Shown: positions 16,299 to 43,116 of the stretch, piece by piece
Layout of the letters: each line of letters starts with the position of its first letter
Position numbering within the stretch: the stretch's first letter is position 1
Source: Pirellulales bacterium
GTDB lineage: Bacteria; Planctomycetota; Planctomycetia; Pirellulales; JACPPG01
Assembly: GCA_036490175.1 (NCBI GenBank)
Contig: DASXEJ010000071.1
Location: 1-43,489 of the forward strand
DNA length: 43,489 nucleotides
Direction: 5' to 3'
Program-made: the position numbers and the translations under genes
The notes under the pieces: model-generated
Databases searched by the model: none
The model's input: the letters and a program-made list of their open reading frames with translations, nothing else
What the model was told of the DNA's origin: nothing

Positions 16299-18146
16299 AT
16301 GCGGCGGTTCCACCTCATCTTTTCGCACCATCCGCAGGTTCGCGCTTTGAGCCACCCCGACGCATCGCAATCAGCCAGCCCGGTGAAGGGAATCGAAGTC
16401 TTCGCCTGGACGATGTACGACTGGGCGAATAGCGCGTACTCCACGTTCCAGATCACGATCTTGATGTTGTACTTGCAGCAGGTCGTGCTGCCGGGCGCGC
16501 CGGGCCAAATTGCGTATGGGTATGGTATCGGCATCTCGACGTTGTTCGCGGCTGTGCTCTCGCCCATTCTGGGAGCCGTAGCCGACGCGCATGCCAGCAA
16601 ACGATTCTGGCTGTGTGTGATGACCTTGGCGGGCGCCCTCGCCAGTGTGGCGATGTACTTTCTGCCCGTGGAAATGTCATGGGCGTTCGTCGGTCTGTTC
16701 TTCGTTACCAGTCTGAGCTTCGAGCTGGCGTGGGGACTGTACAATGCGTTCCTGCCTGAGATTGCTGACGAAAAATCGATGAATCGCGTCTCGGCCTACG
16801 GCTTTGCAATGGGCTATGTCGGCGGCGGACTGGCCCTGCTAATCGGCGTGCTAGTAGTGCAGTACGGCGATGTGCTGGGACTGCCCTCGAATCTGGCAGG
16901 GGATTGCGCCATCGGCCACGAGATCGATTTCGACGTGGCGCTGCCGCCTGGCGATTACTCGGTCACCATCACGGTGGGAGATCTGCGCGAAGCGCACGGC
17001 CCCATAGACGTGTCACTAAATGGAAAGCGTGTCGAGACTGTACGCACAACGCGCGGCGAAGTTCTGGCCTATGACTACCCGGTTACCCTCACTGGTGACA
17101 AGTTATCGCTGCAACTAACCGGACCCGGGACTATCGAACAAGCCGCTTTGGCCGGCGTTGGCATTTCGGGAGGGCCGTTGTCTAGACCGCTCTTGTTCGA
17201 CTTCGGCACCGCGGACTCTGCCGCACAGGCAGGCTCGATCTGGGTCACGAGCGAGGACGAGTTCAAAAGTTACAATCGCGCCGCACTGACAGCGAAGAGC
17301 AAAGCTATCCCGGAAAAGGATCTACCTGAGGAGATTTCTTTCGGTCTGCGCCCGGTAGAGGGGCAGCCGCTCGAATCGCGCGATGCCGTGATGGTCCCCC
17401 GCTTGAAACTAGGACTGCTGATCATGGGGCTTTGGTGGGGCTTGTTTAGCCTGCCTACGTTGTTGATTCTGCGCGATCGTGTCAAGCCCCGCGCGGGGCG
17501 CGAATCGCTTGCCGCCACGGCCGCTCGGGCCGTGCGCGAAGTGAGCAAAACCCTCAGCGGGGTGCGTCATTTCCGCGTTTTATTTTTGTTTTTGATCGCC
17601 TTTCTGATTTACAACGACGGCGTCGCGACGATCATCACGCAATCCACGGTGTTTGCCAAGGAAGTACTGCATATCGGTGCCGGCGAATTGGTTTTTGTGG
17701 TGCTAATGATTCAATTCGTTTCGATGCCGGGCGCACTATTCGTCGGTTGGCTTTCGGGTAAACTTGGCGAGAAGCAGACCCTGATGATGTGCATCGTGGT
17801 TTATATTGGTTGGTTGCTGGCCGCGTTTTTCATCAACACGCGCTTGCAATTCTGGATCATGGGGGCCGTCTTGGCGCTGGTAATGGGGGGCATTCAAAGT
17901 GTCAGCCGTGCCATCATGGGGCTGATGACTCCGGCCAGTCGAAGCGGCGAGTTCTTTGGCTTCTTTAATTTGTCGAGCAAAGCGACCAGCTTCGCCGGTC
18001 CGATCCTATTCAGTTCGATCCTGGCGTGGACCGGCCAGCCGCACCTGGCCATCTTGAGCTTGCTGGTATTCTTCGTCGTGGGCGGCGGACTGGCTTGGTT
18101 TGTCAACGTCGCCGAAGGGCATCGCCGGGCCTTGGAAGATACATAG
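16299..18146 (+). CDS. UMF1/Atg22-type MFS transporter with a large inserted periplasmic domain
   Basis: This 615-residue membrane protein carries the UMF1-family hallmark MYDWANSAY in its first helix (residues about 38-46). Helices 1-5 lie at about residues 32-62, 70-97, 102-122, 126-152 and 163-189. Helix 6 (about 368-391) is separated from helix 5 by about 178 residues, where relatives have a short loop. With a cytoplasmic N-terminus this loop is periplasmic. The insert is beta-rich and contains ALPPGDYSVTITVGD (about 214-228) and, later, LLFDFGTADS (298-307). These resemble the strands of carbohydrate-binding beta-sandwich domains seen in rhamnogalacturonan-type enzymes, but in swapped order. 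Helices 7-12 follow (about 425-601). The substrate is unknown; the insert suggests a sugar or oligosaccharide. The start lacks a clear ribosome-binding site. Confidence 0.82.
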   Translation: MRRFHLIFSHHPQVRALSHPDASQSASPVKGIEVFAWTMYDWANSAYSTFQITILMLYLQQVVLPGAPGQIAYGYGIGISTLFAAVLSPILGAVADAHASKRFWLCVMTLAGALASVAMYFLPVEMSWAFVGLFFVTSLSFELAWGLYNAFLPEIADEKSMNRVSAYGFAMGYVGGGLALLIGVLVVQYGDVLGLPSNLAGDCAIGHEIDFDVALPPGDYSVTITVGDLREAHGPIDVSLNGKRVETVRTTRGEVLAYDYPVTLTGDKLSLQLTGPGTIEQAALAGVGISGGPLSRPLLFDFGTADSAAQAGSIWVTSEDEFKSYNRAALTAKSKAIPEKDLPEEISFGLRPVEGQPLESRDAVMVPRLKLGLLIMGLWWGLFSLPTLLILRDRVKPRAGRESLAATAARAVREVSKTLSGVRHFRVLFLFLIAFLIYNDGVATIITQSTVFAKEVLHIGAGELVFVVLMIQFVSMPGALFVGWLSGKLGEKQTLMMCIVVYIGWLLAAFFINTRLQFWIMGAVLALVMGGIQSVSRAIMGLMTPASRSGEFFGFFNLSSKATSFAGPILFSSILAWTGQPHLAILSLLVFFVVGGGLAWFVNVAEGHRRALEDT

Positions 18147-18285
18147 CCACAGGCGTCACCGGACAGGGGCTGTGACGAGCCAATACGCGCCGCTGGTCCG
18201 TCTGCGGCCGGCACATTAAACTAGCGTTGTTCGCTGCTGGCTCTTCTGGCAGCACGAAACACCAGTGCCCGGAGAATGATTGCTC

Positions 18286-18921
18286 ATGCTAGGTGCCAAA
18301 CTCGACGTCGGTCCGTACCTTGATCGCCTGCACGCCGAGATCGACCGCGTCGACCACGCGGAAATCCGCCAGATGGCGGACCTGATTTACGGAGCCTGGC
18401 AAGACGGAAAATTCGTCTTTATTTTCGGCAATGGTGGCTCGGGCACTACTGCCTCGCACTTCGCCGAAGACCTCGGCAAGAGCAGCCTGCATGAGCACCA
18501 TTTGAAAGATGAATCCAAGAAACGACTCAAGGTGCTCAGCTTGACTGACAACCTGGGCTGGATTATGGCCGTCGGCAATGATGTGGGCTACGACCAGATT
18601 TTCGTACAGCAATTGATGAACTACGGCAGCAAGGGGGACGTGGTGCTCGCGATCAGCGGATCGGGCAACAGCCCCAATGTGTTGGCCGCGGTCGACTGGG
18701 CCAACCGGCACGGACTGAAGACATTTGGGCTAACCGGTTTCGCTGGCGGCAAACTGCGCGGCATGGCACAGGCCGGATTGCAGGTCCCGCTCGACGATAT
18801 GGGCATGGTCGAGAGCATTCATCTGTGCGTATTTCATTGGGTTCTGAACGACGTCTTTGCCCGCATCAACCACGAAGGTCGCCATTCGGCGGGCAGTGTA
18901 CCTACTGCCGCCAGCAAATGA
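18286..18921 (+). CDS. SIS-domain sugar-phosphate isomerase (GmhA-like)
   Basis: The product of about 211 residues is a single SIS domain. It shows the phosphosugar-binding FGNGGSGTTASHFAEDLGK segment and a second loop AISGSGNSPNVL, both typical of phosphoheptose isomerase-like proteins that convert sedoheptulose 7-phosphate; a conserved pair of His residues near HEHH may take part in catalysis. GGAG at 18271-18274 could serve either the ATG used here or an in-frame TTG at 18280. A ROK-family sugar kinase follows 191 bases downstream on the same strand, consistent with both working on phosphorylated sugars, though the spacer argues against strict co-transcription. Exact substrate unknown; family assignment is firm. 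Confidence 0.85.
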   Translation: MLGAKLDVGPYLDRLHAEIDRVDHAEIRQMADLIYGAWQDGKFVFIFGNGGSGTTASHFAEDLGKSSLHEHHLKDESKKRLKVLSLTDNLGWIMAVGNDVGYDQIFVQQLMNYGSKGDVVLAISGSGNSPNVLAAVDWANRHGLKTFGLTGFAGGKLRGMAQAGLQVPLDDMGMVESIHLCVFHWVLNDVFARINHEGRHSAGSVPTAASK

Positions 18922-19112: not shown

Positions 19113-20102
19113 ATGTTCTTGGGCGTTGAAATTGGTGGAACGAAGTTGCAGCTAGGCGTTGGCGATGGCTCTGGGCCCCCGCTAATCGAATTGGTACGGC
19201 TCGACGTAATAGGCGCCGACGGCGCGCAAGGAATTCTAGCGCAAATTCGTACGGCGGCGCGAGCATTGATCGTAAAACACGCCGTCAACCGCGTTGGCTT
19301 CGGCTTTGGTGGTCCGATCGACGCTACTGGCTTGCGCACGGTGAAGAGCCACCAGGTCAACGGCTGGGATGATTTCCCTCTGGCCGAGTGGTGTCAACGC
19401 GAGTTGGGCCTGCCGGCCGTGCTCGGAAATGACGCCGATCTAGGAGGCCTGGCCGAAGCGCATTACGGAGCCGGCAGGAATTACAACCCGATCTTCTACA
19501 TCACCGTTGGCACCGGCATCGGCGGTGGCTTTATCGTCGATCGACACGTCTACCGAGGTGGCGGGCACGGCGCGGCCGAACTCGGTCACTTGCGCCCCGG
19601 CGTCAAGGCGACGGATCCTCACGACACGCTCGAATCGCATGCTGCTGGGCCTGGCATCGCGGCGACGATGCGCCGGCGGTTGGCGCAATTGCCCTCGACC
19701 GACGATCGCAATGCGCGCGATCTGGTGGCCCGCTGTGGAGGAAACTTGGAATTGCTTACGGCCAAGATTGTGGGTGAGGCGGCCTCAGCTGGAAACCAGC
19801 TCGCAATGGTAAGCCTGCAAGAATCGCTGCGCGTGCTTGGCTGGGCTATCGCCCAAATGATCACAATTCTTGCGCCAGCGGCCGTGTTGATCGGTGGCGG
19901 CGTATCCCTAATGGGAGAAGAGCTGTTCTTCGTTCCCGTGTGCCGTGAGGTCGAGCGCTATGTCTTTCCGCCATTTCGTGGCACCTACCGGATAATGCCG
20001 GCGCAGCTCGGCGAAGAAATGGTCGTGCATGGGGCCCTGGCGCTGGCGGCGAACGCGGATAATATAACGCCAAATGTCAAAGGACGAATGACGCACTACT
20101 GA
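19113..20102 (+). CDS. ROK-family sugar kinase-like protein lacking the zinc motif
   Basis: The 329-residue protein has the ROK fold: ATP-binding GVEIGGTKLQLG at residues 4-15, catalytic Asp107 in GNDAD, the TVGTGIGGG phosphate loop (131-139), and the ELGH motif with His159. In most ROK kinases ELGH is followed by a CxCGxxGC zinc site; here that stretch (about 160-175) has no cysteine at all. A C-terminal IGGGVS motif completes the ATP site. A glucokinase-type or related hexose kinase function is likely given the intact Asp107, but loss of the zinc site is a real divergence. No ribosome-binding site is visible before the ATG. It follows the SIS isomerase gene on the same strand. Confidence 0.82.
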   Translation: MFLGVEIGGTKLQLGVGDGSGPPLIELVRLDVIGADGAQGILAQIRTAARALIVKHAVNRVGFGFGGPIDATGLRTVKSHQVNGWDDFPLAEWCQRELGLPAVLGNDADLGGLAEAHYGAGRNYNPIFYITVGTGIGGGFIVDRHVYRGGGHGAAELGHLRPGVKATDPHDTLESHAAGPGIAATMRRRLAQLPSTDDRNARDLVARCGGNLELLTAKIVGEAASAGNQLAMVSLQESLRVLGWAIAQMITILAPAAVLIGGGVSLMGEELFFVPVCREVERYVFPPFRGTYRIMPAQLGEEMVVHGALALAANADNITPNVKGRMTHY

Positions 20103-25428: not shown

Positions 25429-27132
25429 TCAGCCGTTCCAGTGTCCCGTCGGTGTGGCCCGCCCCATGACCGACAGAGGGGGCGGTAGCTCAGTTGGGAG
25501 AGCGCTGCGTTCGCAATGCAGAGGTCGAGGGTTCGACTCCCTTCCGCTCCATTCTTGCAGCCCGTTGACAATTGTTGTCAGCGGGCTGTTTTCGTTGACA
25601 GGGATTACACTTACATCGTCGGTAGACGCCACGTGCTGCGAAGCTGCCTCAACCGCCTCTTTGACACTGTTTGCCACCGTTACGCAGGCAGGGACAATAG
25701 TCGTGGCAAGCACGGTGACAAGCGCGCTTTCGTCACTAGCCGCAGACGTGTGCGGCTTCACTTCGAGTGACGGCAGAGTAGCCAGCGCGGCCACCACGTC
25801 TAACTGCTTGGGATCGGTGTAGACGTTCATCGTCAGGCCGATATCGCTATGCCTAGCTGCGGCTTGAGCCACTCGCGGTGCCACGCCCCCTTTGCTTAGG
25901 TTCGTGACGAACGTGTGCCGAAGAGCATGGATATCGATCGTCCGCCCACGTTCATCGCGCTTGTCGATCTTCGTCTTGCCGGTCTGCGGATCTTTGTACG
26001 CCCTAGCCAGGCCGGCTGCGACCAGGTCGCGGTCGAGGATTCGTAACAGGCCGGCAGGGACCGTGAATAGCGGGGTGCTAGCCGCGGTCAAACCATGCTG
26101 GCGCATGTCGTCGACCCATAGTCGTAGATCAGCAACAAGGTCGCCACGCAGTGGAATCACATTGCCTTCGCGGTTCTTTTCGTCGCCGGGGTTCAGATTC
26201 AAGAGGGCTGCGCCTAGATCGACTTGCCCAAGGGTAATCGACGTTAGCTCGCCCTTACGTAGTCCCGTCAGGAGCAAGGTTTTGTAGATCAATGTGCGCT
26301 CCCAACCGATCCGTTCCAATCGGTCGCGGGATGCCTCTGAGAGCTTTGCTGCTTGCTCGCCTTTGTGCTTACCGCGACGTACGGTCAAAGCATCATGGAG
26401 CGGCCTTGCTCGGGCTATTTCTAGCAACCTAGACAATTCGACCTCTGTCATGGCGCGTCGTTTTCGTCGCTGGTCAAGACGGGCGTCCGCAACTGCAACG
26501 GCAGCGAATGGATTCAAGGTCAACCGCCGTACCGTGGGCTTCATGCACCAATTGCAGAACCCAAGCATAGCTTGCCGGAATTCGTTACGGTTTCCCGCAG
26601 ACATGCCCTCCCCTGCCCTGACGTCTAACCACGCCTCGAACGCGACGGCATCAAGATCGACAAGTCGCGCAAACTTGCAATCGCTCGCGATCCGGTTTAG
26701 ACGCGCGGTCGTTGTTTTGATTCGCCCGGCATGCCGTCCCTTGGCCGTCTGCGATTTCGAGTAGGCATCAAAATGTCTTGCAATGCTGACCTTCTGATGA
26801 TCGATAACGGCATCCTCTGCTGGCGTGTGAATACCGGCCCGAACATTTTCAACACGCTTGGTGAGATTGCCTAGGACCTGCCTCGCCATTGCCGCATCTC
26901 GGCAGCCAGTAGGTACTTCGCGGACATTCCCGGTGGCGTCGCGGTACTGTGCCGTGTAAGTGTTCGCACGCAACAGCACGCGATCGAGGCCGTCGTTACC
27001 TTTTATTACCGGAGCAGCGCGAAGCTTGCCTTTGCTATCGCGCCAACGCGCCACGCGCTTCTCGTCCCGCAGTTCCACAACAGCCCCAGTCGGAAGCGGT
27101 TTGCTATAGCTTTTTCGTCGAACGTTTCCCAC
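25429..27132 (-). CDS. tyrosine-type site-specific integrase overlapping the tRNA
   Basis: This integrase of about 567 residues catalyses insertion and excision of the element. Relative to the GTG start, catalytic residues are Arg292 (TGLRKGEL), His402 and Arg405 (HALRHTF), His428 (AARHSD) and Tyr438 (MNVYTD), with a SAM-like core-binding domain before them. I chose the GTG at 27132, preceded by AAAGGG, because the sequence from there resembles integrase N-termini; a TTG at 27168 is the alternative. The catalytic core ends near residue 455. The remaining part includes residues read from the tRNA terminator (about 515-525) and the antisense of tRNA-Ala (about 528-552, GRESNPRPLHCERSALP), and the stop lies in flanking chromosome. 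The C-terminal tail therefore depends on the integration site. Confidence 0.9.
   Translation of the reverse strand: MGNVRRKSYSKPLPTGAVVELRDEKRVARWRDSKGKLRAAPVIKGNDGLDRVLLRANTYTAQYRDATGNVREVPTGCRDAAMARQVLGNLTKRVENVRAGIHTPAEDAVIDHQKVSIARHFDAYSKSQTAKGRHAGRIKTTTARLNRIASDCKFARLVDLDAVAFEAWLDVRAGEGMSAGNRNEFRQAMLGFCNWCMKPTVRRLTLNPFAAVAVADARLDQRRKRRAMTEVELSRLLEIARARPLHDALTVRRGKHKGEQAAKLSEASRDRLERIGWERTLIYKTLLLTGLRKGELTSITLGQVDLGAALLNLNPGDEKNREGNVIPLRGDLVADLRLWVDDMRQHGLTAASTPLFTVPAGLLRILDRDLVAAGLARAYKDPQTGKTKIDKRDERGRTIDIHALRHTFVTNLSKGGVAPRVAQAAARHSDIGLTMNVYTDPKQLDVVAALATLPSLEVKPHTSAASDESALVTVLATTIVPACVTVANSVKEAVEAASQHVASTDDVSVIPVNENSPLTTIVNGLQEWSGRESNPRPLHCERSALPTELPPPLSVMGRATPTGHWNG
25479..25551 (+). 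tRNA. tRNA-Ala (anticodon CGC)
   Basis: The 73-base sequence folds as a full cloverleaf: a 7-bp acceptor stem (25479-25485 with 25544-25550, one G-U pair), D stem GCTC/GAGC, a 5-bp anticodon stem with loop TTCGCAA giving anticodon CGC (Ala, codon GCG), and a T stem with TTCGACT loop. The 3' CCA is not encoded. A strong terminator follows, and the integrase gene of the adjacent element reads through this tRNA on the opposite strand, marking it as the integration site. Confidence 0.95.
25558..25592 (+). terminator. rho-independent terminator after tRNA-Ala
   Basis: A 14-bp hairpin (25558-25571 with 25575-25588, one T-G pair, three-base loop) is followed by TTTT. It ends the tRNA transcript and also lies inside the 3' part of the integrase reading frame on the other strand. 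Confidence 0.85.
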
Positions 27133-27346
27133 GAAATAAACCCTTTGTGCTTTGGCGGACGAGCACAAGGCCGAAGTAGTCGGCTAGCTTGTCCGCAATG
27201 TCGAGGCGTAGAGAAGTATCACCACGTGCAAAACGAATCAGACTAGCACGGGATATGCCAGTCTGATTCGCAATTTGCAGCAGTGGAATTCCGCTTTCGC
27301 AGATAGTTTGTCGTAACAGGTCCGACATCTGTGATGAGCGCGTCAT
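27104..27346 (-). CDS. small XRE-type helix-turn-helix regulator
   Basis: The 80-residue protein contains a lambda-repressor-like helix-turn-helix: LLQIANQTGISRASLIRFARG gives the recognition region and a short helical segment follows. I used the ATG at 27346; a second Met at 27328 is also possible, and no strong ribosome-binding site is seen. The end overlaps the integrase start by 29 bases, so the two are probably coupled. It lies between the excisionase-like gene and the integrase, the usual place for a switch controlling excision. Confidence 0.75.
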   Translation of the reverse strand: MTRSSQMSDLLRQTICESGIPLLQIANQTGISRASLIRFARGDTSLRLDIADKLADYFGLVLVRQSTKGLFRGKRSTKKL

Positions 27347-27389
27347 GTGCTTTTTATCACACGTAGCGCACCTGAAGTCAAGCTTGCGA

Positions 27390-27581
27390 CTACCGAACAG
27401 GTGCGCAGCCCTTCGCGATCCAGGTATCAATTTCTGCCGATCGCCAACGGTTCATGGCCCCGACCTTGACAGGTGCGGGAAGTTTTCCGCCGTCCGTGAG
27501 CCGGTAGATTTGGCGAGGGGAAACCTGTAGCTTCGTTGAAAGATCGCCCACAGTGAGCAGTACACCTTCCGCGGCTATCAT
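27390..27581 (-). CDS. AlpA/excisionase-like winged helix-turn-helix protein
   Basis: This 63-residue protein is a compact MerR-like DNA-binding domain of the AlpA/excisionase type: LTVGDLSTKLQVSPRQIYRL forms the helix-turn-helix, followed by a basic wing and the WRSAEIDTWI end common to these proteins. The ATG at 27581 has an AAGGA site seven bases upstream; the longer frame to 27776 adds unrelated residues. Excisionases of this type bend att-site DNA and direct the integrase toward excision, which fits its position upstream of the integrase. Confidence 0.8.
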   Translation of the reverse strand: MIAAEGVLLTVGDLSTKLQVSPRQIYRLTDGGKLPAPVKVGAMNRWRSAEIDTWIAKGCAPVR

Positions 27582-27726
27582 TGAAATGTCCTTTTCTGTC
27601 GCATTGATGCGACGTTTCCCAGTTATAGTTTGCGCGATCGCTTTAGGCGGGCGCGAGAAGATCAACCAACTCGTCGGCGCCGCCGAACTGGCACAGCAAC
27701 GTTCAACAGCGAGCAATCGGAGACCC

Positions 27727-28047
27727 TCACCTAGCCCCTTCGATGGCGGGGATTCTCGTCGGCCATACCACATCAAGTTTGTCCCAGTTGTCTAAGTCCA
27801 ACGACGCAGCTGGTACAGGGTTGGCCCGTAGCTCCTGCCTGGCCGCCGAACGCGCGCTCTTGGACCTGAGGCCGGCATCAGCCATGCGTTGGTCGACAAT
27901 GTTCATACTTGTACGCCACCAAAGATGAACGCCAGGATTGTAAGTGTTGCGCACGACCCATGAACGTTCATCCGTATACGCAATGGCCCGTAAGGCTTCC
28001 GGATTAAATTTTGGCGCCCGCTGACTAACCAATGATCTTATCGCCAT
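27727..28047 (-). CDS. element-borne protein of unknown function
   Basis: I do not recognise this 106-residue protein. It is basic and Trp-rich in the middle (VVRNTYNPGVHLWWRTSM) with an Ala/Arg-rich helical stretch at about residues 60-78. A strong AAAGGAAG ribosome-binding site seven bases before the ATG shows it is translated. Its start overlaps the preceding gene's stop by ten bases. Confidence 0.65.
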   Translation of the reverse strand: MAIRSLVSQRAPKFNPEALRAIAYTDERSWVVRNTYNPGVHLWWRTSMNIVDQRMADAGLRSKSARSAARQELRANPVPAASLDLDNWDKLDVVWPTRIPAIEGAR

Positions 28048-28301
28048 TCAAAGGCTTCCTTTCGTTCAGTGCGTTGCCGCGCTTCCAGCTTTCGAAGCAA
28101 TTCACAAATGCCTCGGTATTCAGCTAGCTGTTGATTGACTTGCGCAATGCGATCGGACACTTCGGCGCTGCGGCGTTCTTTAGCTCGCATTGAAGCCAGT
28201 TCGTTTTCCAGGTCTTGGATGCTGCATTCAACGCGGGAACTGCCGAGCATACGCAAAACGCGATTGTTGCTGCTGATAACTGTATATTCTTTGTCTTTCA
28301 T
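28038..28301 (-). CDS. short coiled-coil protein of the element
   Basis: This 87-residue protein has no recognised family. From residue about 28 it is strongly charged and helical, with heptad-like Leu/Ile spacing indicating a coiled coil (DLENELASMRAKERRSAE and onwards). The ATG at 28301 has an AAAGGA site close upstream; a longer frame to 28385 is less likely. It lies between a second coiled-coil gene and the Trp-rich protein, with overlaps typical of one transcript. Confidence 0.6.
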   Translation of the reverse strand: MKDKEYTVISSNNRVLRMLGSSRVECSIQDLENELASMRAKERRSAEVSDRIAQVNQQLAEYRGICELLRKLEARQRTERKEAFEWR

Positions 28302-28366
28302 GTGATCCTTTCTTGCCACACGCGCACAGGCGGCAACGCTGCCGCCCGGCGCACATGGAAAATGCT

Positions 28367-29026
28367 TCAGATGGTGTATCCACATTCGCGGGCTTGCGCC
28401 AGCCAGATCGAACCCCGTCCGTTGATGTCATCTAGCGGTTCTGGCCGCCAGCGATAGGGTTGTGGCGGGCAATATGCGCCGCCACTGATCGCATGCACAG
28501 ATTCCCTGACGGCAGTTTCATTTTGGCAAGCCGCCTCCAATGCGATTAAACATCGGTGGATATCCCGAAGTGACTCTTCGTACTTGGTACGCAGGCCGTA
28601 TTTTTCCACCAAACGGCGGCCTGCATCATATTCAGCCTTCGTGACGATTTGGGATTGCAGTTCAACCGCCTTTCGAAATACGCGCAGCTGGTGCTCAAGG
28701 GTCTTTATCTTCTGGTCATTGGATTCCGGCATCTGCGTAAATGTGTTGTCGGCCAGCAAAGCGGCAACCTCGCTGTCGACGAACGTCGTTGCTTGACGCT
28801 GAACCGCATAGGCCCCTTGCAAATCGCTTTGAACTTTATCAGCTTGCTGATTTAGGTCTTGAAGCTTTTGCCATGCCGCAGCGTAACCTTCGTCATCATG
28901 CAAGGACGCATGCGGACGAAGGCCGAGCCAATCGGCCAAAGTCCTAACCATGCTCTGCACGCCGCCAGCGGTAGGCTGGCTTGTTGCGTGCTCCGTAGTT
29001 GTCTCTGTCGTTTTCTTAGTTGGCAT
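28367..29026 (-). CDS. coiled-coil protein next to the prohead protease
   Basis: The 219-residue protein starts with a Thr/Glu-rich tail (residues 1-20), then a long helical region (about 45-180) with coiled-coil character, and ends in a Trp/Pro-rich segment. The ATG at 29026 has an AGGGGGC site six bases upstream. It directly follows the HK97-type prohead protease gene, where tailed phages usually encode the major capsid protein. It is too short and lacks the composition expected of an HK97 capsid, so it may instead be a scaffold-like or unrelated protein; this is inference from position and helical content. Confidence 0.65.
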   Translation of the reverse strand: MPTKKTTETTTEHATSQPTAGGVQSMVRTLADWLGLRPHASLHDDEGYAAAWQKLQDLNQQADKVQSDLQGAYAVQRQATTFVDSEVAALLADNTFTQMPESNDQKIKTLEHQLRVFRKAVELQSQIVTKAEYDAGRRLVEKYGLRTKYEESLRDIHRCLIALEAACQNETAVRESVHAISGGAYCPPQPYRWRPEPLDDINGRGSIWLAQARECGYTI

Positions 29027-29105
29027 ATGTCTGCCCCCTTTTGCGCCAGTTTCAATTGCCGTGCGTGAATTAGCGCAGGTCCACGCAACGGCCCCATTTG
29101 GGAAA

Positions 29106-29654
29106 TCAGTCATCACTTTCTAAAAGTCGCAGCCGACAGGCCGCAGTTTCCATTTGTGGCGAGGCCATTCGTATCCCCACTTCGGTACGCTGATAGGCTG
29201 GAAAAGCGCAGATCGACAATTCAAAAATGTCCGCGTCGTGAATCTCTCGAATGCGCTCGCCGTCCATCAATCGCCAGGAATCGCCTTTTCGCGGGACTCT
29301 GAAGCCAAACGAGCAGCCAGTTACATCCCCGCGACGGATGCTTTCGATGGCATCGCGGCCCGCCTGCGTGTCCGGAGGCGAAAGGTCAAAAAACAGTCCC
29401 TTTGAATCTTCGCGCAGACGCAACGTTCCTGCCGACAGCCGACCAAGCACCAAGTCGTTGTTGTGGTTCCAAAGCGCGCGAACGTCGACGCCGCCGGCTA
29501 GGCTCTGTTTGAAAGCCCCGGGACGGATTATCTCTTTAAAGCCGCCCAAGTCGCTGCTGTAGCTGTTAAAGACGGCCGCGTAACCTGCAATGCGCGTAAC
29601 TGCGTTTGGTTCAACCGCGGCCGCCGAAAGTGTTCCAGAATTGTGCAAAATCAT
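29106..29654 (-). CDS. HK97-family prohead protease
   Basis: The 182-residue protein matches the HK97/U35 prohead proteases, serine proteases that cleave scaffold and capsid proteins during phage head maturation. Visible marks are RIAGYAAVFN at the start, FKEIIRPGAF, the WNHNNDLVLGR segment with the catalytic His, GCSFGFRV with the catalytic Ser, and the IFELSICAFPAY strand. A GAGGGG ribosome-binding site precedes the ATG. No portal, terminase or recognisable capsid gene lies beside it, which is unusual because this family normally sits in a packaging and head module. Confidence 0.85.
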   Translation of the reverse strand: MILHNSGTLSAAAVEPNAVTRIAGYAAVFNSYSSDLGGFKEIIRPGAFKQSLAGGVDVRALWNHNNDLVLGRLSAGTLRLREDSKGLFFDLSPPDTQAGRDAIESIRRGDVTGCSFGFRVPRKGDSWRLMDGERIREIHDADIFELSICAFPAYQRTEVGIRMASPQMETAACRLRLLESDD

Positions 29655-29850
29655 TTGTCCCCTCAGGTGTTAGGTAAAGTTCGGCGCGCACTGCGGCGCC
29701 GATTGGTTCTGGCGTAAACTGCCCCTTGTGATTGGCCCCGTGCCACCTTTTGGCAATGGGCCATTTTTGCGCGACCGACGATTGGTTAGCAACCGTGACG
29801 CGCACGAGTAGAAGCCAGCTCAACTGGTCCTCAGACGCGCTGGAAGCGCC

Positions 29851-32724
29851 CTACGCGCACGTCGCGAGAAACGTTTCTTCCAGCCAGGCCGGTCTTGGCC
29901 GGATACCGATCCATACGTTTGCGCGAGTTTTTGTATCGTAGGGTGTCTCGGTAATAGGAATGTTTTCCTTCACGTGTTTTTTGTCTGCTGCGCTTTGCCT
30001 CGTGGTGGTAACTGTCCCGACGGCCGAGCGTAGATGCACGGCGAACTGACCGTCATCAAGGTCCAGTGCATCTTCGCGCGTTGACTTCCATCGTTGATAA
30101 AGCTTATGCAAAGCAGGCTTCTGAACCGCATATTCTCCAAGCTCGCAACATTCCCCGACAAACGCTTTAATCGGTGACGACGCTGAACGAAAGTCGTCAC
30201 ATAACTCTTTGCTCGATTCAGGCAGCGTGAATTTGCCTGCCTCGTACAAACGCTTCAGCCCTTCCAGTGCCCATCGCAAGATTGCAGGGTATTCCGGTAC
30301 CAGTGCTTCGGCTAAGTCGATCCGTTCTTTGTCGCAGTATGATTCGGTCAGTTTCAAAGGGATCAGCCGCGCATTCAATGCGCCCGAGTTGTCCGGGAGT
30401 GGGACAAAATCATTCGATTGCATAATGATGCGCGTGCCCTTCAGACAATAACCCACGTTCTTTTGATACTTGCGATTGATGGTTATCGAATCGCCGCCCG
30501 TCCAGGCTTTCAGATTTGCGACGATTGCAGCGGTCTGTCGCGGAAGGGTAACTTCGGGAACAATCGCCAAGCGCTTGCCAAGCGCCTGTTCAAGGCCGAA
30601 ATCTTTCACCAGGTCCTCTAGTCCAGGGCTACAGATCGCCGGTTGGCCGCCAAGCAAGTTTTTGAGCACGCCTGTAATCGTCCCTTTGCCCGACCGTGGT
30701 GGTCCGACGAGCATGAAGAACTTCTGCAAGTCGTAGCCTCGCCACAAGCAATAGCCGAAGATTTGTTGCAGGCATAGGCACCAATTCTCGTCTTGCTTAA
30801 GCGTGCCGAGAAACCTGTGCCATTCGACCGGCGCGGGGCCATTTGGTTGAAAATCAAAGTTTGCCGCGTGCTCGAAAAACAGCTTTGGCGTTTTGGGCAT
30901 GAAATAGTCCGTGCGACCTTCGATGTAGCGGCGCACATTTAGAAAGCCGTTTTTGAAAACAAGTACGTCGTCCGGGCGCCAGTCGTGTGGCTGTAGCCAG
31001 AACGGCGCTTGCACCGTTTTCGAAATTTCGCATGCGCACAAACTTTGCATCGCCTTGAACACGTCAGTGACTAGTTCGCGGGTAACCTTGGATGGCGTCA
31101 CTCCCCGTTGTTTTGCCACTTGATCGAATACTTCTTGAACCGTCTGACGAATCCAGGGGTCGAGTTCACCAGGCTTAACAACTTCCCAGCCCTCAACCAA
31201 GTCGTAGCGGTATGTTTGACCGCAAAAATACGCGAGCGTCTGTTCTCCTTTGTCTGTTGCCCACTTCTTCAGGTGGATTTTTGCAAGGATCAGCGGATCA
31301 TTAAACGCCCGACCTTCAAGGCTTTCCCCAAGCAACTCACGGACAATCGTTTCGGCGCTCTCCCCTGCCGGTTCGCCAAACACACGTTGCCATTTGGTCT
31401 TTTGCGTCACCCAACCGTTCATTTGGCCGTTAGCCCGATCGCCGTCGCCGTGCCTTGTAACTTCGACAACCAGTCGCCCGTCACAGTTCCGCCGCAGATT
31501 AATCGGCCGGTTAGCTACGGCTTGGGGTATGTCCTGTGCTTCACCTAACGCGGCGAGGGCTTCCGTAAAGGCCGTTGCGTTGGAAAATTGGTAGCCGCCC
31601 GCTTTGGGTAGCTCGGCACCGCCTGCGTATCGTGCTGCGGTTTCCAGGCTACACGGTGCATTAAAAAGACAGCTCGTCCAGTCGTCATGCGACCATGTGT
31701 TGGCTTCGCGCACTCGGTTGCCGAAGCGCACCACTTTCCAACCGCCCCCCTCCAAGGGGAATGCGAAGCAATTGATCGCTGTCGACCCAGATGAATCAGT
31801 CTTGAACACGCCTCTGTGTTTCGCGGGGTCGAATACTTTGGCAAAAGCCAGCGTATGCGTGTGCAGGCAGTGGTGTTCAGGCACCCATTCAGCGGAATAG
31901 CCGCTGTTGGCTAGCTCTTCAATTGTCGCGTGGTGTGTTTGATCGAGTGAGACTGGTTGCTGCGACCTGCAAACCCGGTCAAAGGCGTCTAGCTCGCCCT
32001 CGGGTAGGTTCGCAATTGCGACCCGTGCGCGCTGCTGGATCGGGATATGGTTTCGCCAGTCGGACGGCAGATCGGCTAGTTTGAGCGTCCGTGCAGACGG
32101 CTTGATTAGCTCTAGTCCGTTGGTGCCGGTTTGCTTCTCGTGCCATATCCACATATTGCCGCCACAGACGTCGACACGTGCAGTGAAGTCAAAACCGCAG
32201 TCGCTGCCCATCATGCTGAGGATGGCGCGGCCAAGCGCGGCATGCTCGCTATGATTGGCGGTCGGGATGTCGTCGAGCAGAACGTAGAGATGCAAACCCT
32301 TTCCACTTGTGCTGCGGCGGACTTCCACGTAGTCAAGGTCGCGTGCTTTGGCCGTCACTTCCGCTAAGCTTTCCGGAGAAAGGCCGGCCGCGTGGCCTGC
32401 CACAGCGTCGAAGTCAAAACCGACGAATTTGCTCACGCGGTCGACGTACTGCCAGCCGGTCATGCCGATGGCCTGGCAGTGCTGTGCTAAATTGAACCGC
32501 AGATCGTAATCGGTCCAGCTCGGCTCGGTGGCAGCGTTCTTTGGTATCCGCAGGTGGTGCCATGTCTCGACGCCATCGGTATAGGTGTTTCGACGCCCCT
32601 CGACGGCTGTGCCGGGCTGGACGTTAACCTGCGTTTCCATCTGCGGCGTCCAGCGCTCCCGTAGGTCCTGCCCGGGAAATTCGCATTGCGTTAGGTGAGT
32701 GCCAATTGCCTCTGAGACCTTCAT
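29851..32724 (-). CDS. primase/SF3 helicase (P4-alpha-like replication protein)
   Basis: The 957-residue protein combines an N-terminal archaeo-eukaryotic-type primase region and a C-terminal superfamily 3 helicase. In the primase part, FVGFDFD (about residue 100-106) gives the acidic metal motif and SGKGLHLYV (about 142-150) the Ser-x-His-type motif. The helicase part (about 600-850) has Walker A GPPRSGKGT near residue 672, a Walker B-like LAIVPEVTL stretch, and a later IIMQSND segment. This matches the DUF5906/D5-type replicative proteins of phages, plasmids and satellites, which open the origin and prime DNA synthesis. A GGAG site six bases before the ATG fixes the start. The 423-base region upstream is rich in short repeats and is a candidate origin. 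Confidence 0.88.
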   Translation of the reverse strand: MKVSEAIGTHLTQCEFPGQDLRERWTPQMETQVNVQPGTAVEGRRNTYTDGVETWHHLRIPKNAATEPSWTDYDLRFNLAQHCQAIGMTGWQYVDRVSKFVGFDFDAVAGHAAGLSPESLAEVTAKARDLDYVEVRRSTSGKGLHLYVLLDDIPTANHSEHAALGRAILSMMGSDCGFDFTARVDVCGGNMWIWHEKQTGTNGLELIKPSARTLKLADLPSDWRNHIPIQQRARVAIANLPEGELDAFDRVCRSQQPVSLDQTHHATIEELANSGYSAEWVPEHHCLHTHTLAFAKVFDPAKHRGVFKTDSSGSTAINCFAFPLEGGGWKVVRFGNRVREANTWSHDDWTSCLFNAPCSLETAARYAGGAELPKAGGYQFSNATAFTEALAALGEAQDIPQAVANRPINLRRNCDGRLVVEVTRHGDGDRANGQMNGWVTQKTKWQRVFGEPAGESAETIVRELLGESLEGRAFNDPLILAKIHLKKWATDKGEQTLAYFCGQTYRYDLVEGWEVVKPGELDPWIRQTVQEVFDQVAKQRGVTPSKVTRELVTDVFKAMQSLCACEISKTVQAPFWLQPHDWRPDDVLVFKNGFLNVRRYIEGRTDYFMPKTPKLFFEHAANFDFQPNGPAPVEWHRFLGTLKQDENWCLCLQQIFGYCLWRGYDLQKFFMLVGPPRSGKGTITGVLKNLLGGQPAICSPGLEDLVKDFGLEQALGKRLAIVPEVTLPRQTAAIVANLKAWTGGDSITINRKYQKNVGYCLKGTRIIMQSNDFVPLPDNSGALNARLIPLKLTESYCDKERIDLAEALVPEYPAILRWALEGLKRLYEAGKFTLPESSKELCDDFRSASSPIKAFVGECCELGEYAVQKPALHKLYQRWKSTREDALDLDDGQFAVHLRSAVGTVTTTRQSAADKKHVKENIPITETPYDTKTRANVWIGIRPRPAWLEETFLATCA

Positions 32725-33147
32725 GTTGTGCTCCGACGACTAACTGGTAGATGTGAACGAAACGCGTTGCCCCTTCGAGACGATCGTTGCCCCGCGCAGA
32801 ATTGCCCTTCCGATGCGGGCAGAGAGCCCGTCGTCCCTTCGTCACGCCGCCGTCATGCCAATGGTCACGCAAGGGTGACGAAAGGAAGTAACGGCGGTGC
32901 AATGACTTAGAGGGGGAAGAAAATGCCGCCGTCAACCCTGGCAAGGGTAAAACGACAACAGACAACGACATACATACCGGCCTGTTAGCAACTGGCAGTT
33001 ATATGTGTTGGTTAGAAACTAAGTCTGTTAAAGGGTTGACACCCTTGACATGAAGTTAAAAGGCTCTGTAAATGCCCTTAAAATAAGCATTTACGACGTC
33101 AACCCACGGGCCCCGTATTGTTGGCGAAAGTTCGACGGACCATGACG
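32725..33147. other. repeat-rich intergenic region, candidate replication origin
   Basis: No gene is supported here. Visible symmetry includes TTCGTCAC (32838-32845) with its complement GTGACGAA (32875-32882) and a further GTCACG at 32864; two TTAGnAACT copies (32985-32993, 33012-33020); AAGGGT/ACCCTT arms (33031-33036, 33041-33046); and GTAAATGC/GCATTTAC arms (33068-33075, 33087-33094). The right half is AT-rich. Its position just upstream of a primase/helicase gene suits an origin or a regulator-binding region. Confidence 0.45.
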
Positions 33148-34680
33148 TCAGATTGCGTCACTAGGCACGACGGCTGACGGCAACGGTACGCCCCGGAACT
33201 TTGGCTTGGGGATGCCACTCGCGCCGTCTTGTCGACTTCCCGCCGGCAATTTGGTGGGTTGTTGATTCTTACTAGCCGTTGCCTTTGAACCAGTATTGCC
33301 GGCTCTGGCCATTTTGCCTGTCCGAGAGGTATTACCGCTGCCCGCCATATAAGATATGCGCCCTTTTCCGATTTTCACGGACGTCAAAGCGGATTTTTCT
33401 AAAGATGTTTGCGATCTGCCATTGACTGACCGTTTGCTTGATTTCGGCGTTTGCTTGGCTGCCGGCCTTTTTTGGGACGCAGTCGTCATTTGGCAGTAGT
33501 TTCTAAGTCGCGCGACGGCATAACTGTCGTTTTCTGCTAAATAGCGTTCAATATCGGGTGCGAGCTTCTTAATGTGATCTCGAAGGGTGCTTTCTGGCAT
33601 GTTCAGATGCGCAGCGGTCTCCGTCCAACAACCTTTTTTCAAGAAATGGTCGATGGCCACGGCGACGTTGTCACGAGCAAGAAGCTGAGCCGCCTCAGTG
33701 ACTTTTTGCGAAAGCCACCAACGTTTCTCGCGATAATCTGTGCTGGTGTCGACAAACAGATCGGCATTTTTTTCGGAACAATAGTCAATTCTCGAACCCT
33801 GTTCCCAGGGCTTGCAACCGTTGTAATCGTCCTTGACGGTCGGAGACATGTCATCGGGACGTATGTCCGATGCTGGTCTGGGTTCGTTCCCGTCTTTCAG
33901 AGCCTCTATACGCTTCTGGCACGTACGTACGTCCGGCCTGTTTGGAGGTCGCAAAAAGTTAAAGAAGTCATACACAGAACGTTCAACGGCACGGCGTAGA
34001 TAACGCCAAACGTGCGCGCCATCATTCATCGTCTCTGCGATTACGGTGCCAGCGGCTACGGTAAGCGGTAATAATGAATGGGACACCAGAGCGCCGAATA
34101 GCTCAGGCTTTTTTTTTAGCGGGATTTTGGCTGCTTCTTTGACCCACCCCTTTAGGCGCGGCATTACAGCCAGGATCAAACCGTTCCGGTCACCAGCGGC
34201 GTGCAGCGCAGCAAAACGTTCCTCCGACGTGTCGACGTTTGCGCAATGTTTCAGGATGTCAAATTCGACGAGCAAATCACCGACCGTCCTCGACGGAATA
34301 ACATCGGTTCCGCTACCGGACAGGTTAGAGAAGAAGCGCCAAAGCGGTTCAAGCCAGTCGCCTTCAACACGCTTGACCGTCAAACACGCCGATGGAATCT
34401 CCCGCAATGCCACACGAATCAATGCGGCTTCGGACGGGGAGAGCTGTGCGCATTCATCCTGGATCGCTTTAAGGTGCAGCTGCGTAAGACTTCCGCGCCA
34501 CCACGGGTTTGTACGCGCTAAAGCTTCGTGAATTGCTTCGATTTCAAGCGCGGTGAGGCCGTGCGAACCTTTCTGCACATTCGCGGTATGGTCCTGCAGA
34601 TGGGGCGTCGGCCCTCCCTCAAGTTGTGTCACGCGACTGCGAATAAACCGTCGTTTTTTTCGTTGAGCAAGTGATGGCAT
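33148..34680 (-). CDS. large element-borne protein with a helix-turn-helix, function unknown
   Basis: I cannot assign this 510-residue protein to a family. The first 40 residues are very basic, the middle is mostly helical, and around residues 360-395 a segment resembling a helix-turn-helix appears (TETAAHLNMPESTLRDHIKKL). After about residue 400 the chain becomes Lys/Arg/Ser/Gly-rich and probably disordered. I chose the ATG at 34680 over an upstream codon in the same frame. It overlaps the small Cys-rich gene at its 5' end and is the first large gene of the element's main transcript. DNA binding is likely from the HTH and basic tails; a regulator or replication accessory role is inferred. 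Confidence 0.7.
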   Translation of the reverse strand: MPSLAQRKKRRFIRSRVTQLEGGPTPHLQDHTANVQKGSHGLTALEIEAIHEALARTNPWWRGSLTQLHLKAIQDECAQLSPSEAALIRVALREIPSACLTVKRVEGDWLEPLWRFFSNLSGSGTDVIPSRTVGDLLVEFDILKHCANVDTSEERFAALHAAGDRNGLILAVMPRLKGWVKEAAKIPLKKKPELFGALVSHSLLPLTVAAGTVIAETMNDGAHVWRYLRRAVERSVYDFFNFLRPPNRPDVRTCQKRIEALKDGNEPRPASDIRPDDMSPTVKDDYNGCKPWEQGSRIDYCSEKNADLFVDTSTDYREKRWWLSQKVTEAAQLLARDNVAVAIDHFLKKGCWTETAAHLNMPESTLRDHIKKLAPDIERYLAENDSYAVARLRNYCQMTTASQKRPAAKQTPKSSKRSVNGRSQTSLEKSALTSVKIGKGRISYMAGSGNTSRTGKMARAGNTGSKATASKNQQPTKLPAGSRQDGASGIPKPKFRGVPLPSAVVPSDAI

Positions 34681-34799
34681 TTTGCGCAATTATCGGGTTC
34701 TTGCCATGTCTCCCCTGCGCAAATATCGACCCCGCCCTTCATCTCCTTCAAAAAAGCGCAGAGCGGCCAATCCTTTTGCCCAACACGGGCGAGAATCAT
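34629..34799 (-). CDS. possible small Cys-rich protein
   Basis: A 56-residue frame starting at ATG 34799 has cysteines at four positions, including a CAKCHH cluster near the C-terminus that could bind zinc. It overlaps the start of the 510-residue protein's gene by 52 bases. Such tiny Zn-binding proteins are common in phage-related elements, but there is no strong ribosome-binding site and the frame could be chance. Confidence 0.4.
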   Translation of the reverse strand: MILARVGQKDWPLCAFLKEMKGGVDICAGETWQEPDNCAKCHHLLNEKNDGLFAVA

Positions 34800-35471
34800 G
34801 GCAATCCGATCCGGCAGCCGCGATTCAAGCGGTTCTGCCAAAAAACTCGCCGTAGTCGGGGATGTCTTTCCCCATTATCAAAACGTGCGCACCCTGCCGG
34901 ATCGGCGTGCCCCTAGCTGCGAACGCATGCATCGGGGGGTAGGCGGGGTGAACTCTCTACACCACGACACCCGGGACCGTTTGGCCCCAAATGCGAATTT
35001 ATTCGCAGGTTTTCACATAGGGGGCATGCCGACCAGGACCCGGCGTGCTCGCTGCCGATGGCCAGCGCATTCAATCGACCACTGGGTACAAAATATACCT
35101 GCCGGTTCGTGGTCGCCCGTGAAGCGATCTATCGGTCACGGCCTGACCAGCGTTCTGCTACTGAAGGTACAGGAGAGCTTTCGTGTGGGATTCGCGCAGC
35201 CATTTTCAATGAACAGCCTAGCGATTGCCGCGCGCGACCCGTCTAAGGCCAACACGTGCGTTCGATCAGGTAATCTGCACAAGTTATTCCTTGCCTTCAG
35301 ACCGTCGACTCGCTATAACCTTGCAGATACGTAAGCGGGCCTCATGCGGCGAGCGGGCGGTTCTCTATTCGCCGTTCGGGCAGGATTCACAAATGCGACA
35401 TTCGCAGTCTGTGGCGATGCGCGCATTCCTGCATTGGGTGCCCGATTGGGCCCTCTTTGCAGGAGAGATTC
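34800..35471. other. 672-base region without a gene, presumed right border of the element
   Basis: Open frames here do not look like proteins. The region should contain the promoter of the minus-strand element transcript and that of the plus-strand giant gene. The clearest signal is a perfect 16-base palindrome at 34992-35007 with TGCGAAT arms. I found no copy of the tRNA 3' end that would mark attR, so the right boundary is not proven. Confidence 0.5.
34992..35007. promoter_or_regulatory. perfect 16-base palindrome near the presumed element border
   Basis: TGCGAAT, two T bases, then ATTCGCA form an inverted repeat in otherwise non-coding DNA. It may bind the element's XRE or excisionase-like regulator or be part of a recombination site. 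No second copy is visible in the window. Confidence 0.35.
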
Positions 35472-38400
35472 GTGCTCATCAGACCAACGAGTTGGTTCCG
35501 CTCCCTGGAAACGGCCGGCTATCGGCGCAAGGGGCGTCGGCCGATCGGTACGAAGCGGCTGCGGCTTGAAGAGCTAGAGTCGCGACTGCTGATGACGGTC
35601 GACACGTCTCTGGGCGCCATCCCGGCTCCCACACAAGTCACGCTCGATTCGTCTGCGCGTTTCCGGATCACCGATAGCGTGGCCCAGCAGGTTTTCACTG
35701 TGCAGACAGTGAACGATCCACAGAACGGCCTGGAAGCCGTGCTGCAGATGTCGCCAACCGCCCCGACCACTTTGCAGACGCTCTACGAATTCGATGTCGT
35801 TCTGAATGTCGACGGTCAGGACACGGCCACCTACGACGTCCAGGTCGTGCTGCCCGGCGCGCAGATGGTCTCGGATTTGGCAACCGAACATACGCAGGAA
35901 GCGCAGTCGGTCATCGCTGACGTGGATGCCCCAGTCGGCGCAACCGTGGACTCGCAAGGTGACGTCACCGAACACCCGATGATGGTCGCGACCGTGCTCC
36001 ATTTCGGCCAGAGCTTAAGCGATATTCCCAGTCCACTGGCGATGCCGCCCGTCGCCGTGACCGACGTCGGCACAAAGCTCGACGTGCTGTCGAGCATGGC
36101 CACACAAACCGACGCTGACGTCCAGGACCGTCTGAACGTCTATGCCGGCATAGACCAGGTTGCCAGCGACCTGGCTGCAGATCCATCACAGGACGAAGCA
36201 CATCAACTGGGAGCGACGCTGTATACGCTGGCCGATCAAATCCAGGCAGACATGGCCAGCTCCGACACCACGCTCGCCGCCGCAGCCAAGCAGGCGTACG
36301 ACGCGGCCGTCTCGCAAAGCGATTCGTATTTTAGCGTGTGGTCGGGCAAGGACATCAACTCAGACGTCTTTCAGCAAACGGTCGATCAGCAAGACCAGTA
36401 TTCGGCGTTCTATGAATCGGGACAGGTGCAGCTCATCAATCAGTTTGCCGTCAATCTAGGCAGGCCAGCGCTCGTCACTGTCTCGGTGCCGCAAGATTAT
36501 CTCGGCATGATGGCGACCAGCAACACCGCCTCGGCGTTGATCACCACCAGTGGGCCAGCCGCTGACACGTACGTTGATTTGCCATCGGGTACGATGGCTC
36601 ACAACAGTGACACGACTCTGGACGTCTCCAAAGCCACTGGACTCCAGCAGGACTCATTGATTCGCTTTAATCTCGCTTCGATGGGTATTACATCGCAGCA
36701 AGTCGACAGCGCGACCCTAACTCTCAACGGAACGTCCGTCAGTTCGGTCGCGCCGTGGCTGGACGCGCGGGCCGTTCCAAATACCAGTTGGGTGTCGACT
36801 GTCACCGGTACTACGGTCAACGGCGACAATTCATTCGTCGCATCGGGAAATTCCGTGTCGACGTTCCAGGCTCAAACAGGAACCAACACGGTTGACGTGA
36901 CCGAGGCAGTTCGTGAGGCAGTGCGCGTGGGAGACGCTGATTTCAGTGGGGACGTGGATAATGCGAAGACGGAATTCGACGCTTTTCAAGAATTGCTCCA
37001 GAACCCGTCGGCCTACAACGCCCAGTATGGGTCGCTGACCACGATCACTAATGATATCCTCTATCGCAACGACGCCAATTTTGATGGCGCGGTCACTTCG
37101 GCAGACGTCGGGCCGTTTCTCGCGCTGCATGGCGAACTACAGGGCGACCTGAATTTCGATCATGTTGTCAATGGTCTCGAAATCAATACGATTGCCGGAA
37201 ACTGGTTGGCCACAGGACGGACCTACGAAAATGGTGACGCCAACCTGGACGGCGTCGTCAACGGGGTGGATTTGAATATGGTTGCCGGAAAATATATGGC
37301 CACCTGCACTGGCAATGCCGTTGCTCCGCAGCTCACGTTACGAATATCCGCCGAAAGCGGCTCGACAGGCACCGCAACGTTCTCCTCGACTAACGATGCA
37401 ACATCCGCCAACTGGCCCAGTCTATCCGTAACGCAGCTCGCCGACCTAGCAATCACAGGTTTCACAACCGACGCCAACAACAATTTCAATGTCAGCTATG
37501 TCGTAAAGCCAAGTCCGACGGGAGATTCGGTCGACCCGTTCTCAATCGCTGTCTACCGGTCAACAGATGGTACAGCTGATGACCAAGTGATGACCAGCTT
37601 TTCGGTGAGCGACCCGAGTCTCTTGACGCCTGGGCCCCACACGGCAAAGTTCGCACCCGATTCGTCATACGACGCGAATGACACCACTGACGACTATTAT
37701 CTACGAGCCGTGCTCGACGATGGCCATCAAATAGCAGAGTCAAACGAGTCAAACAACGAGATGCTATTCCAAGGCGGCGCTTTCATCACGCCCGCCGGCA
37801 CGATTCACGTGCAAGGAACCGATGCCGTCAATAATATCACCGTGCGCTGGGCAGGAGATGCGAACTTCGACGGGATAGTGAACGGACTTGATTTCAGCAC
37901 TTGGGCGACGCATACCGGGCCGTGGGGGGGTGATCTAAACAATGACGGTATAGCCAACGGACTCGACGACAATCTGATTGCGGAAAATGACCCGACGCCT
38001 CATACAATTCAGATTCTCGACGACGGGGTTCTTTACTCCTTCGCCCTGAGCAGCACGACCGGCATCGCCGCACGCTTGCATGGAGGCAACGACAACCTCA
38101 CGACGACCCAGACACTTTCCGTACCGGTCCTCGCCCTCGGCGGGACCGGGAATGATGTGCTTCAAGGTGGAGCGGCCGATGATGCACTGTACGGCGGCGA
38201 CGGCAACGACACGCTTCAAGGCGGGGATGGTGACGATGTTCTCGAAGGGGATGCAGGTACTGATTCCCTTCAGGGCGCGGTCGGCAATGACACGTATACA
38301 TACGCTGGGACAAGTGACCAAGGGGTCGAAACCATCTCTGATCCGTCCGGCTCAAATACGCTCGACTTCTCGAAGCTGGATTTAGGGCTCGGCGTGGTTG

Positions 38401-42129: not shown

Positions 42130-43116
42130 GTGGACAATTCAATGGCCTTTACAAGCAGATGGTTGTTTTCTTTCCTAATTGTCGCGTTCGGCGGCTGCCA
42201 GCAGGTGGTAAACGTGCTGCCCACATCATCGTGGCATCAGAAATTCGGCTGGAAGGCAAAAGATTACTTCGACGATCCGAAAGTGGTCGCCTTATGCGAT
42301 GCAATCGAGGCGAATGACCTTGCGGAGATTGATCGGCTAGTCGCCGCCGGCGCGGACGTGAACGCCCAAGGCAAAGGGAAGATGACGCCGCTCTTGTGGG
42401 CCTTTCCCGGCAATCACTTAGAACGTTTCAAGCGATTATTGGAGCATGGAGCGAATCCGAACGTCATCGTGGAGAGCGATTTTGGCACGCGCGGGCAGAT
42501 CTTGTCAGGCACGTCCATAACCCATATGGCGACGGAGACCACGTTTCCCGGCTATTTCGATGCGGTCTTCGCTCATGGCGGCGATCCGAATCTTGAGCAG
42601 AAGACAAAAGCATTGGGGCGAGGCGACACGCCGATTTTCACGGTTGTTATGTCGCCTGTTCCCAATAAGAAAGAGAAGATCCAATTCTTGCTCGAAAAAG
42701 GGGCGGACATCAACCATTTAGACGGCAGCGGCGAAACAGCAATGATGCACGCCGTTGGGTTTAGTCAATTTGACCTTGTGCTGATGCTGCTGGAGGCAGG
42801 TGCTGACCACATGGTTTACAACAAGCGTGGCAGCGCCAGGTTGACGCATATGATACTTGTCTGGAAAACACACACAGATGACGTAGCTAGCTGGACGCCG
42901 CAACTCAGAGCGGACTACGATGCCGTCGTTCGGTGGCTCGAAGCTCACGGAGAGTCCTTTTCGGAAGCACAAAAGGACCTGGACAGGTGGAGCACCTGGT
43001 CGAGAGATACCGGTGAGTATAAACGCAAGATGGCCGCCGAGATTGCCGCACGCAAAGCTCGCGAGGCCGAAGAGCGAGAGAAACGGGAAAGTACCGTCGA
43101 CAAAGCGGATCAGTGA
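42130..43116 (+). CDS. ankyrin-repeat putative lipoprotein
   Basis: The 328-residue protein has a hydrophobic N-terminal segment ending FGGC (Cys23), a lipobox-like site, though Phe at -3 is atypical. Ankyrin repeats follow: AIEANDLAEIDRLVAAGADVNAQ (about 57-80), LLEHGANPN, VFAHGGDPN, LLEKGADINH and LLEAGADH, with slightly irregular spacing. The last 50 residues are a charged helix. The GTG at 42130 follows AGGGAA by ten bases; an ATG at 42142 would keep the signal. The gene starts 13 bases after the giant lipase gene and is surely co-transcribed. Ankyrin proteins serve as immunity partners of lipase-type effectors in several bacteria, so protection against the neighbour is a reasonable inference. 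Confidence 0.85.
   Translation: MDNSMAFTSRWLFSFLIVAFGGCQQVVNVLPTSSWHQKFGWKAKDYFDDPKVVALCDAIEANDLAEIDRLVAAGADVNAQGKGKMTPLLWAFPGNHLERFKRLLEHGANPNVIVESDFGTRGQILSGTSITHMATETTFPGYFDAVFAHGGDPNLEQKTKALGRGDTPIFTVVMSPVPNKKEKIQFLLEKGADINHLDGSGETAMMHAVGFSQFDLVLMLLEAGADHMVYNKRGSARLTHMILVWKTHTDDVASWTPQLRADYDAVVRWLEAHGESFSEAQKDLDRWSTWSRDTGEYKRKMAAEIAARKAREAEEREKRESTVDKADQ

Follow-up and report, generated by a model that had tools for sequence, protein, structure and literature searches.

A UMF1-type transporter of a Pirellulales bacterium with a putative circularly permuted galactose-binding-like domain between TM5 and TM6

The gene at positions 16299–18146 of the analysed window, a 43,489-nucleotide contig of a Pirellulales bacterium, encodes a 615-residue UMF1/ATG22-type MFS transporter with a domain of about 170 residues inserted between transmembrane helices TM5 and TM6. 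The transporter body is ordinary; the insert is unusual and conserved. Profile comparisons indicate that the insert is a circularly permuted galactose-binding-like β-sandwich of the PF21254 (AGA-YXIM_GBD) kind. This anatomy (the insert, its outward side, its kinship, its permuted order and its conservation) is practically certain. The most likely role of the domain is the capture of a sugar or glycan, an assignment that falls somewhat short of even odds; the explanation as a whole, capture included, is given a probability of about 0.4. The transporter gene with its parts and the SIS and ROK genes downstream of it are on the plus strand.

The transporter and its orthologues

A Pfam profile search matched the reading frame to PF11700 in two stretches (E = 1.6e-55). 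The score, 189.1 bits against a gathering cut-off of 24.1, places the protein in the UMF1/Atg22-like MFS family (TC 2.A.1.24). No NCBIfam model scored above its cut-off for the transporter or for the SIS and ROK proteins encoded downstream. A 12-helix MFS fold was obtained with AlphaFold2 from an alignment of six sequences (mean pLDDT 72, pTM 0.67), and MFS structures head the Foldseek list.

The transporter is the only one of its kind in its own genome. Orthologues bearing the insert were found in six other genomes: three congeneric species (G001–G003; 79%, 74% and 55% identity) and representatives of other genera, G065 (50%), G040 (45%) and G072, the last on GenBank contig WGDQ01000965.1, ‘Planctomycetaceae bacterium’. 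The stretch between TM9 and TM10 of the G001 orthologue (L004) also contains a near-duplication of 15 residues, at ~510–525.

Position and topology of the insert

More than 25 UMF1 proteins of the same order align to residues ~30–197 of the window protein and then to residues 367–612, with almost nothing between; since these relatives match both flanks as neighbouring stretches, the ~170 residues separating them are an insert. The inserted segment (residues 195–369, positions 16881–17405) is missing in most relatives of the order and present in seven genomes. It is preceded by TM5 (residues 161–189, positions 16779–16865), a helix of the AlphaFold2 model with a hydrophobic peak at residues 169–187, and followed by TM6 (residues 361–383, positions 17379–17447, from the same model). 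An earlier note on this DNA had described about 178 residues between helices 5 and 6; the place is as stated there, and the length is corrected to about 171–175 residues.

The central cytoplasmic loop after TM6 (residues 392–427, positions 17472–17579) contains 10 lysine and arginine residues and fixes the topology; the short loops after TM1 and TM3 contain none. Taken with the 12-helix model, this charge distribution (positive-inside rule) puts the insert most likely outside the cytoplasm, in the periplasm, as had been proposed. A cytoplasmic segment is scarcely credible: five helices lie upstream of it, the loop that follows is the positively charged one, the domain kind occurs in secreted enzymes and nothing was found in favour of that placement.

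Permuted order of the two halves

A Pfam search with the native insert and with its halves returned nothing useful and no PF21254 match. A profile built from the seven inserts (A1) matched the solved structure of Bacillus YxiM (2o14) at 4.7e-7 and found matches to the second half of the domain in numerous large proteins of planctomycetes, about 700–5,600 residues long; its match to CBM35 modules was marginal (0.04 to 0.25). In these large proteins the ordinary copies carry an FDFG half located ~20 residues upstream of an LPxGxYxV half. A custom profile of the ordinary domain was made from 21 such copies, and E-values were calculated at Z = 1000. On all seven inserts, profile positions 49/51–148 align at insert residues 4–103 and positions 2–30 follow at residues 103–137, with whole-insert E-values of 1e-20 to 1e-32. 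Among 1,400 shuffled sequences nothing comparable appeared (best E 0.033), and rotated inserts outscored those in native order. Every ordinary copy in which both halves were detected has the order A–B, whereas all inserts have the order B–A.

In the window protein, half B, matching the second half of the ordinary sandwich, spans residues 198–291 (LPPGDYSVTITVGD ... LAGVGIS; positions 16890–17171) and corresponds to custom profile positions 51–144 and 2o14 residues 76–153; its predicted strands have pLDDT of about 71–87. Half A, matching the first half, spans residues 297–364 (LLFDFGT ... SFGL ... SRDAV; positions 17187–17390) and corresponds to profile positions 2–30 and 2o14 residues 9–40, the joint alignment placing it likewise. 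When 2o14 was scanned with the insert profile, the two halves thus appeared in the order opposite to that of the insert. After rotation, the joint alignment brings the FDFG, FGW, DRG, RDF, LPxGxYxV and GD motifs into register and indicates that the permutation cut falls in the loop that separates DRG from RDF. Half A also contains an insert-specific elaboration of at least 20 residues, partly predicted to be helical with low confidence (residues 325–346, YNRAALTAKSKAIPEKDLPEEI; positions 17271–17336). It is present in the inserts except L012 and lacking in the ordinary copies.

PF21254 itself is approached but not reached. In native order the best relative, L013, scores 22.8 bits, under the gathering score of 27; after rotation L012 scores 25.6, L013 23.7 and the window insert 11.9 bits. 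Rotated L012 gives a single PF21254 match over positions 2–124 (1.2e-5), and unrotated L012 gives two stretches. Since the scores stay under the cut-off even when rotated, the insert is to be regarded as a permuted relative that has diverged and falls outside formal membership.

It could be supposed that only half B is homologous and that the FDFG stretch beside it is a chance likeness. Searched singly, half A is indeed weak, with E = 0.0011 (Z = 1000) in the window protein and 0.02 to 0.15 in several other inserts. This reading is nevertheless very improbable, as order and register are identical in all seven inserts, FDFGT is invariant among them, the joint alignment extends to the FGW and DRG motifs, and in 2o14 A1 also detects half A ahead of half B; moreover, in L012 half A alone reaches 2.1e-7 (half B, 2.5e-14). 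The earlier note had assigned residues ~208–290 to the second half and ~298–362, starting with FDFGTADS, to the first half of a sandwich known from rhamnogalacturonan-type lyases and esterases, in the reversed order of a circular permutant. Both assignments agree with the profile matches and the permutation with all seven inserts; kinship with domains of the YxiM/rhamnogalacturonan-esterase type agrees with the profiles, the solved 2o14 and the predicted fold of half B.

Predicted fold of the insert

The insert was also modelled alone, from very few sequences; for L006, the insert end used in structure prediction was placed by small alignments (A4–A6). The pLDDT is 65–87 over most of half B and below 50 over most of half A, and half A remains under 50 in the model of the whole transporter as well. 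A closed permuted sandwich would therefore be an extrapolation from half B and the alignments, half A having low confidence in both models. Structure searches with half B (Foldseek, VIA) showed resemblance to CBM35, CBM36 and YxiM sandwiches. The Foldseek value against 2w3j, of CBM35/CBM36 type, is 1.5e-4; the VIA Z-scores reach 8.1, with 6.3 for CBM35 and 6.4 for 2o14, rows near or below Z = 8 being taken as fold-level hints only. The comparison with sugar-binding β-sandwiches suggested in the earlier note is thus favourable as far as half B is concerned.

Distribution and evolutionary history

The seven carriers comprise four genomes of one genus together with G065, G040 and G072, and most relatives of the order are without the insert; no further carrier emerged at E 1e-8 when 392 genomes sampled from the phylum were searched. 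In a transporter tree calculated from the sequences minus the insert, the carriers occupy three separate positions. Their union in one clade was rejected (p-AU 0.0024), so simple vertical descent from one recent gain was dropped, and a gain followed by losses, or recombination, is likely. The inserts themselves cluster, though weakly (60/0 support). The same site and the same cut in all seven favour one gain with later losses, or the exchange of segments between genes.

Ordinary domains occur in head-to-tail arrays with 3–4 residues between copies, for example in G417 (L076), and the second half of one copy with the first half of the next gives exactly the order of the insert. Judging from such arrays, the insert most likely arose from half B of one copy and half A of the following copy. 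The domain is unlikely to have been copied recently within its own genome because no ordinary PF21254 domain passed the test in G000–G004, the genomes of the genus. No relative of the insert was found in viral and plasmid collections.

Between the closest pair, G000 and G002, the insert is 61% and the core 87% identical, the insert thus being the faster-changing part. The dN/dS values of about 0.20 for the insert and about 0.08 for the core, rough estimates with synonymous sites near saturation, point to purifying selection on the insert. Residues invariant among the seven inserts belong mostly to the motif of the fold itself, and no insert-specific binding site stands out.

Gene neighbourhood

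Downstream of the transporter lie genes for a SIS protein similar to GmhA, that is, phosphoheptose isomerase-like (positions 18280–18921; PF13580, 7.9e-19; TIGR00441, 3.9e-32, below its cut-off), and a glucokinase-like ROK sugar kinase (positions 19113–20102; PF00480, 1.2e-39), whose closest solved relatives are glucokinases. Upstream are genes for an enolase-superfamily dehydratase and a creatininase-family protein. The gene context suggests sugar metabolism, although the NCBIfam scores of the transporter, SIS and ROK proteins stay below cut-off. The SIS gene adjoins the UMF1 gene, with ROK beyond it, in five of the seven carriers and in five of ~29 order relatives without the insert (counts uncorrected for kinship); L022, L027 and L030 are among the relatives with SIS–ROK and no insert.

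Elsewhere in the window, positions 25429–34689 contain a phage-type integrase (PF00589), followed by several small reading frames and a DUF5906 protein on the minus strand, and may represent an integrated element. A 2,219-residue reading frame (positions 35457–42116), which encodes RTX calcium-binding repeats together with an Ig-like domain, is followed by an ankyrin-repeat protein (positions 42130–43116).

Possible role of the domain

According to the proposed mechanism, the UMF1 transporter would bear a permuted PF21254/CBM35-like sandwich in the periplasm, held by TM5 and TM6 at the transporter's outer side. As the cut lies within a loop of the sandwich, both ends of the insert can point towards the membrane and connect to the two helices. 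The domain would bind a sugar or glycan weakly outside the membrane, raising its local concentration at the transporter, and the imported cargo would then be handled by the adjoining isomerase-like SIS and kinase-like ROK proteins. Capture of this kind is made plausible by the CBM35-like fold and the sugar-kinase-like neighbour, and is held tentatively. A common fold is not a demonstrated function; invariance confined to the fold motif, the SIS–ROK relatives without the insert and the faster change of the insert relative to the core all speak against capture. The suggestion in the earlier note that the transporter has its own external sugar-capture domain thus stands as regards the external side; the same points and the low confidence of half A leave the sugar capture as a plausible proposal.

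Ranked second, and rather unlikely, is a docking function, in which the permuted sandwich would bind a periplasmic enzyme or envelope protein and so cluster substrate release at the transporter. A precedent has been proposed for a β-sandwich insert in an MFS transporter, PepT1/PepT2 (PMC4597091). The elaboration at residues 325–346, lying outside the ordinary fold, and the lack of an obvious conserved ligand site among the inserts would suit such a function, but the elaboration is missing in L012 and no partner was identified, none being obvious in the gene neighbourhood. The third explanation, a passive one, is unlikely: the insert would have a mechanical or passenger role, as a variation-tolerant lid or spacer that was acquired a single time, disappeared repeatedly and hardly affects transport. 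Its patchy occurrence on the transporter tree, with the single clade rejected, the many relatives without it and its faster evolution fit this account; purifying selection, the presence of the insert in each of the four congeneric genomes that yielded the gene and the complete set of motifs argue against decay. Sugar or glycan capture therefore keeps first place in the ranking, ahead of docking and of a passive insert.

Whatever its role, the insert represents a natural circular permutation within a secondary transporter. It illustrates how a domain from secreted sugar-degrading proteins can be accommodated in a membrane loop, its two termini both directed towards the membrane. If the domain does bind sugars, the transporter would include a receptor of its own, a function otherwise associated with separate binding proteins, and would offer a handle on the cargo carried by UMF1 proteins, a large family in bacteria.

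A different insert in Chloroflexota

At least 11 UMF1 proteins of Anaerolineae (Chloroflexota), the class of L011, have a ~200-residue insert between TM8 and TM9, in which a sandwich-like domain is flanked by two predicted hydrophobic helices (L009:4893–6932, L011:4890–6860 and L101–L110; ~35–47% identical to the L009 insert). Weak CE2_N matches were obtained in two of 11, the best at 3.5e-4; solved structures, searched with a profile, yielded no convincing match, and no relationship by sequence to the insert of the planctomycetes was found. The Chloroflexota proteins have gained a different extracytoplasmic domain independently. It is conceivable, though doubtful, that UMF1 proteins have at least twice built extracytoplasmic receptor domains and so become single-chain sugar receptor–transporters, permutation being a natural route for a tandem-array domain into a membrane loop. 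The L009 record (JAHHHY010000001.1) is titled Pleurocapsa minor, a cyanobacterium; its UMF1 gene is nearest to those of Anaerolineae and its genome, G571, surfaced in a class search centred on Anaerolineae, so the record name is probably wrong.

Comparison with known systems

Searches of the literature on UMF1, bacterial Atg22, domain inserts in MFS transporters and permuted carbohydrate-binding modules found no prior description of the planctomycete insert, in agreement with the earlier note, and none of the Chloroflexota UMF1 insert. The window protein shares its entire transmembrane body of 12 helices with the UMF1/Atg22-like family; members from the same order have a short loop between TM5 and TM6, where the window protein has the long insert. 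Domains of PF21254, such as that of Bacillus YxiM, align with the insert in both halves, but in the insert the halves are swapped and half A contains the extra elaboration. Modules of CBM35/CBM36 type are similar in the predicted fold of half B and match only marginally in sequence. The mammalian transporters PepT1 and PepT2 have extracellular Ig-like domains, which have been proposed to cluster release with trypsin (PMC4597091). Like the insert, these are β-sandwiches placed in an MFS transporter loop that faces outwards; they differ in being two tandem Ig-like folds in the POT family, have no known sequence link to the insert, and no permutation is mentioned in the abstract of that account.
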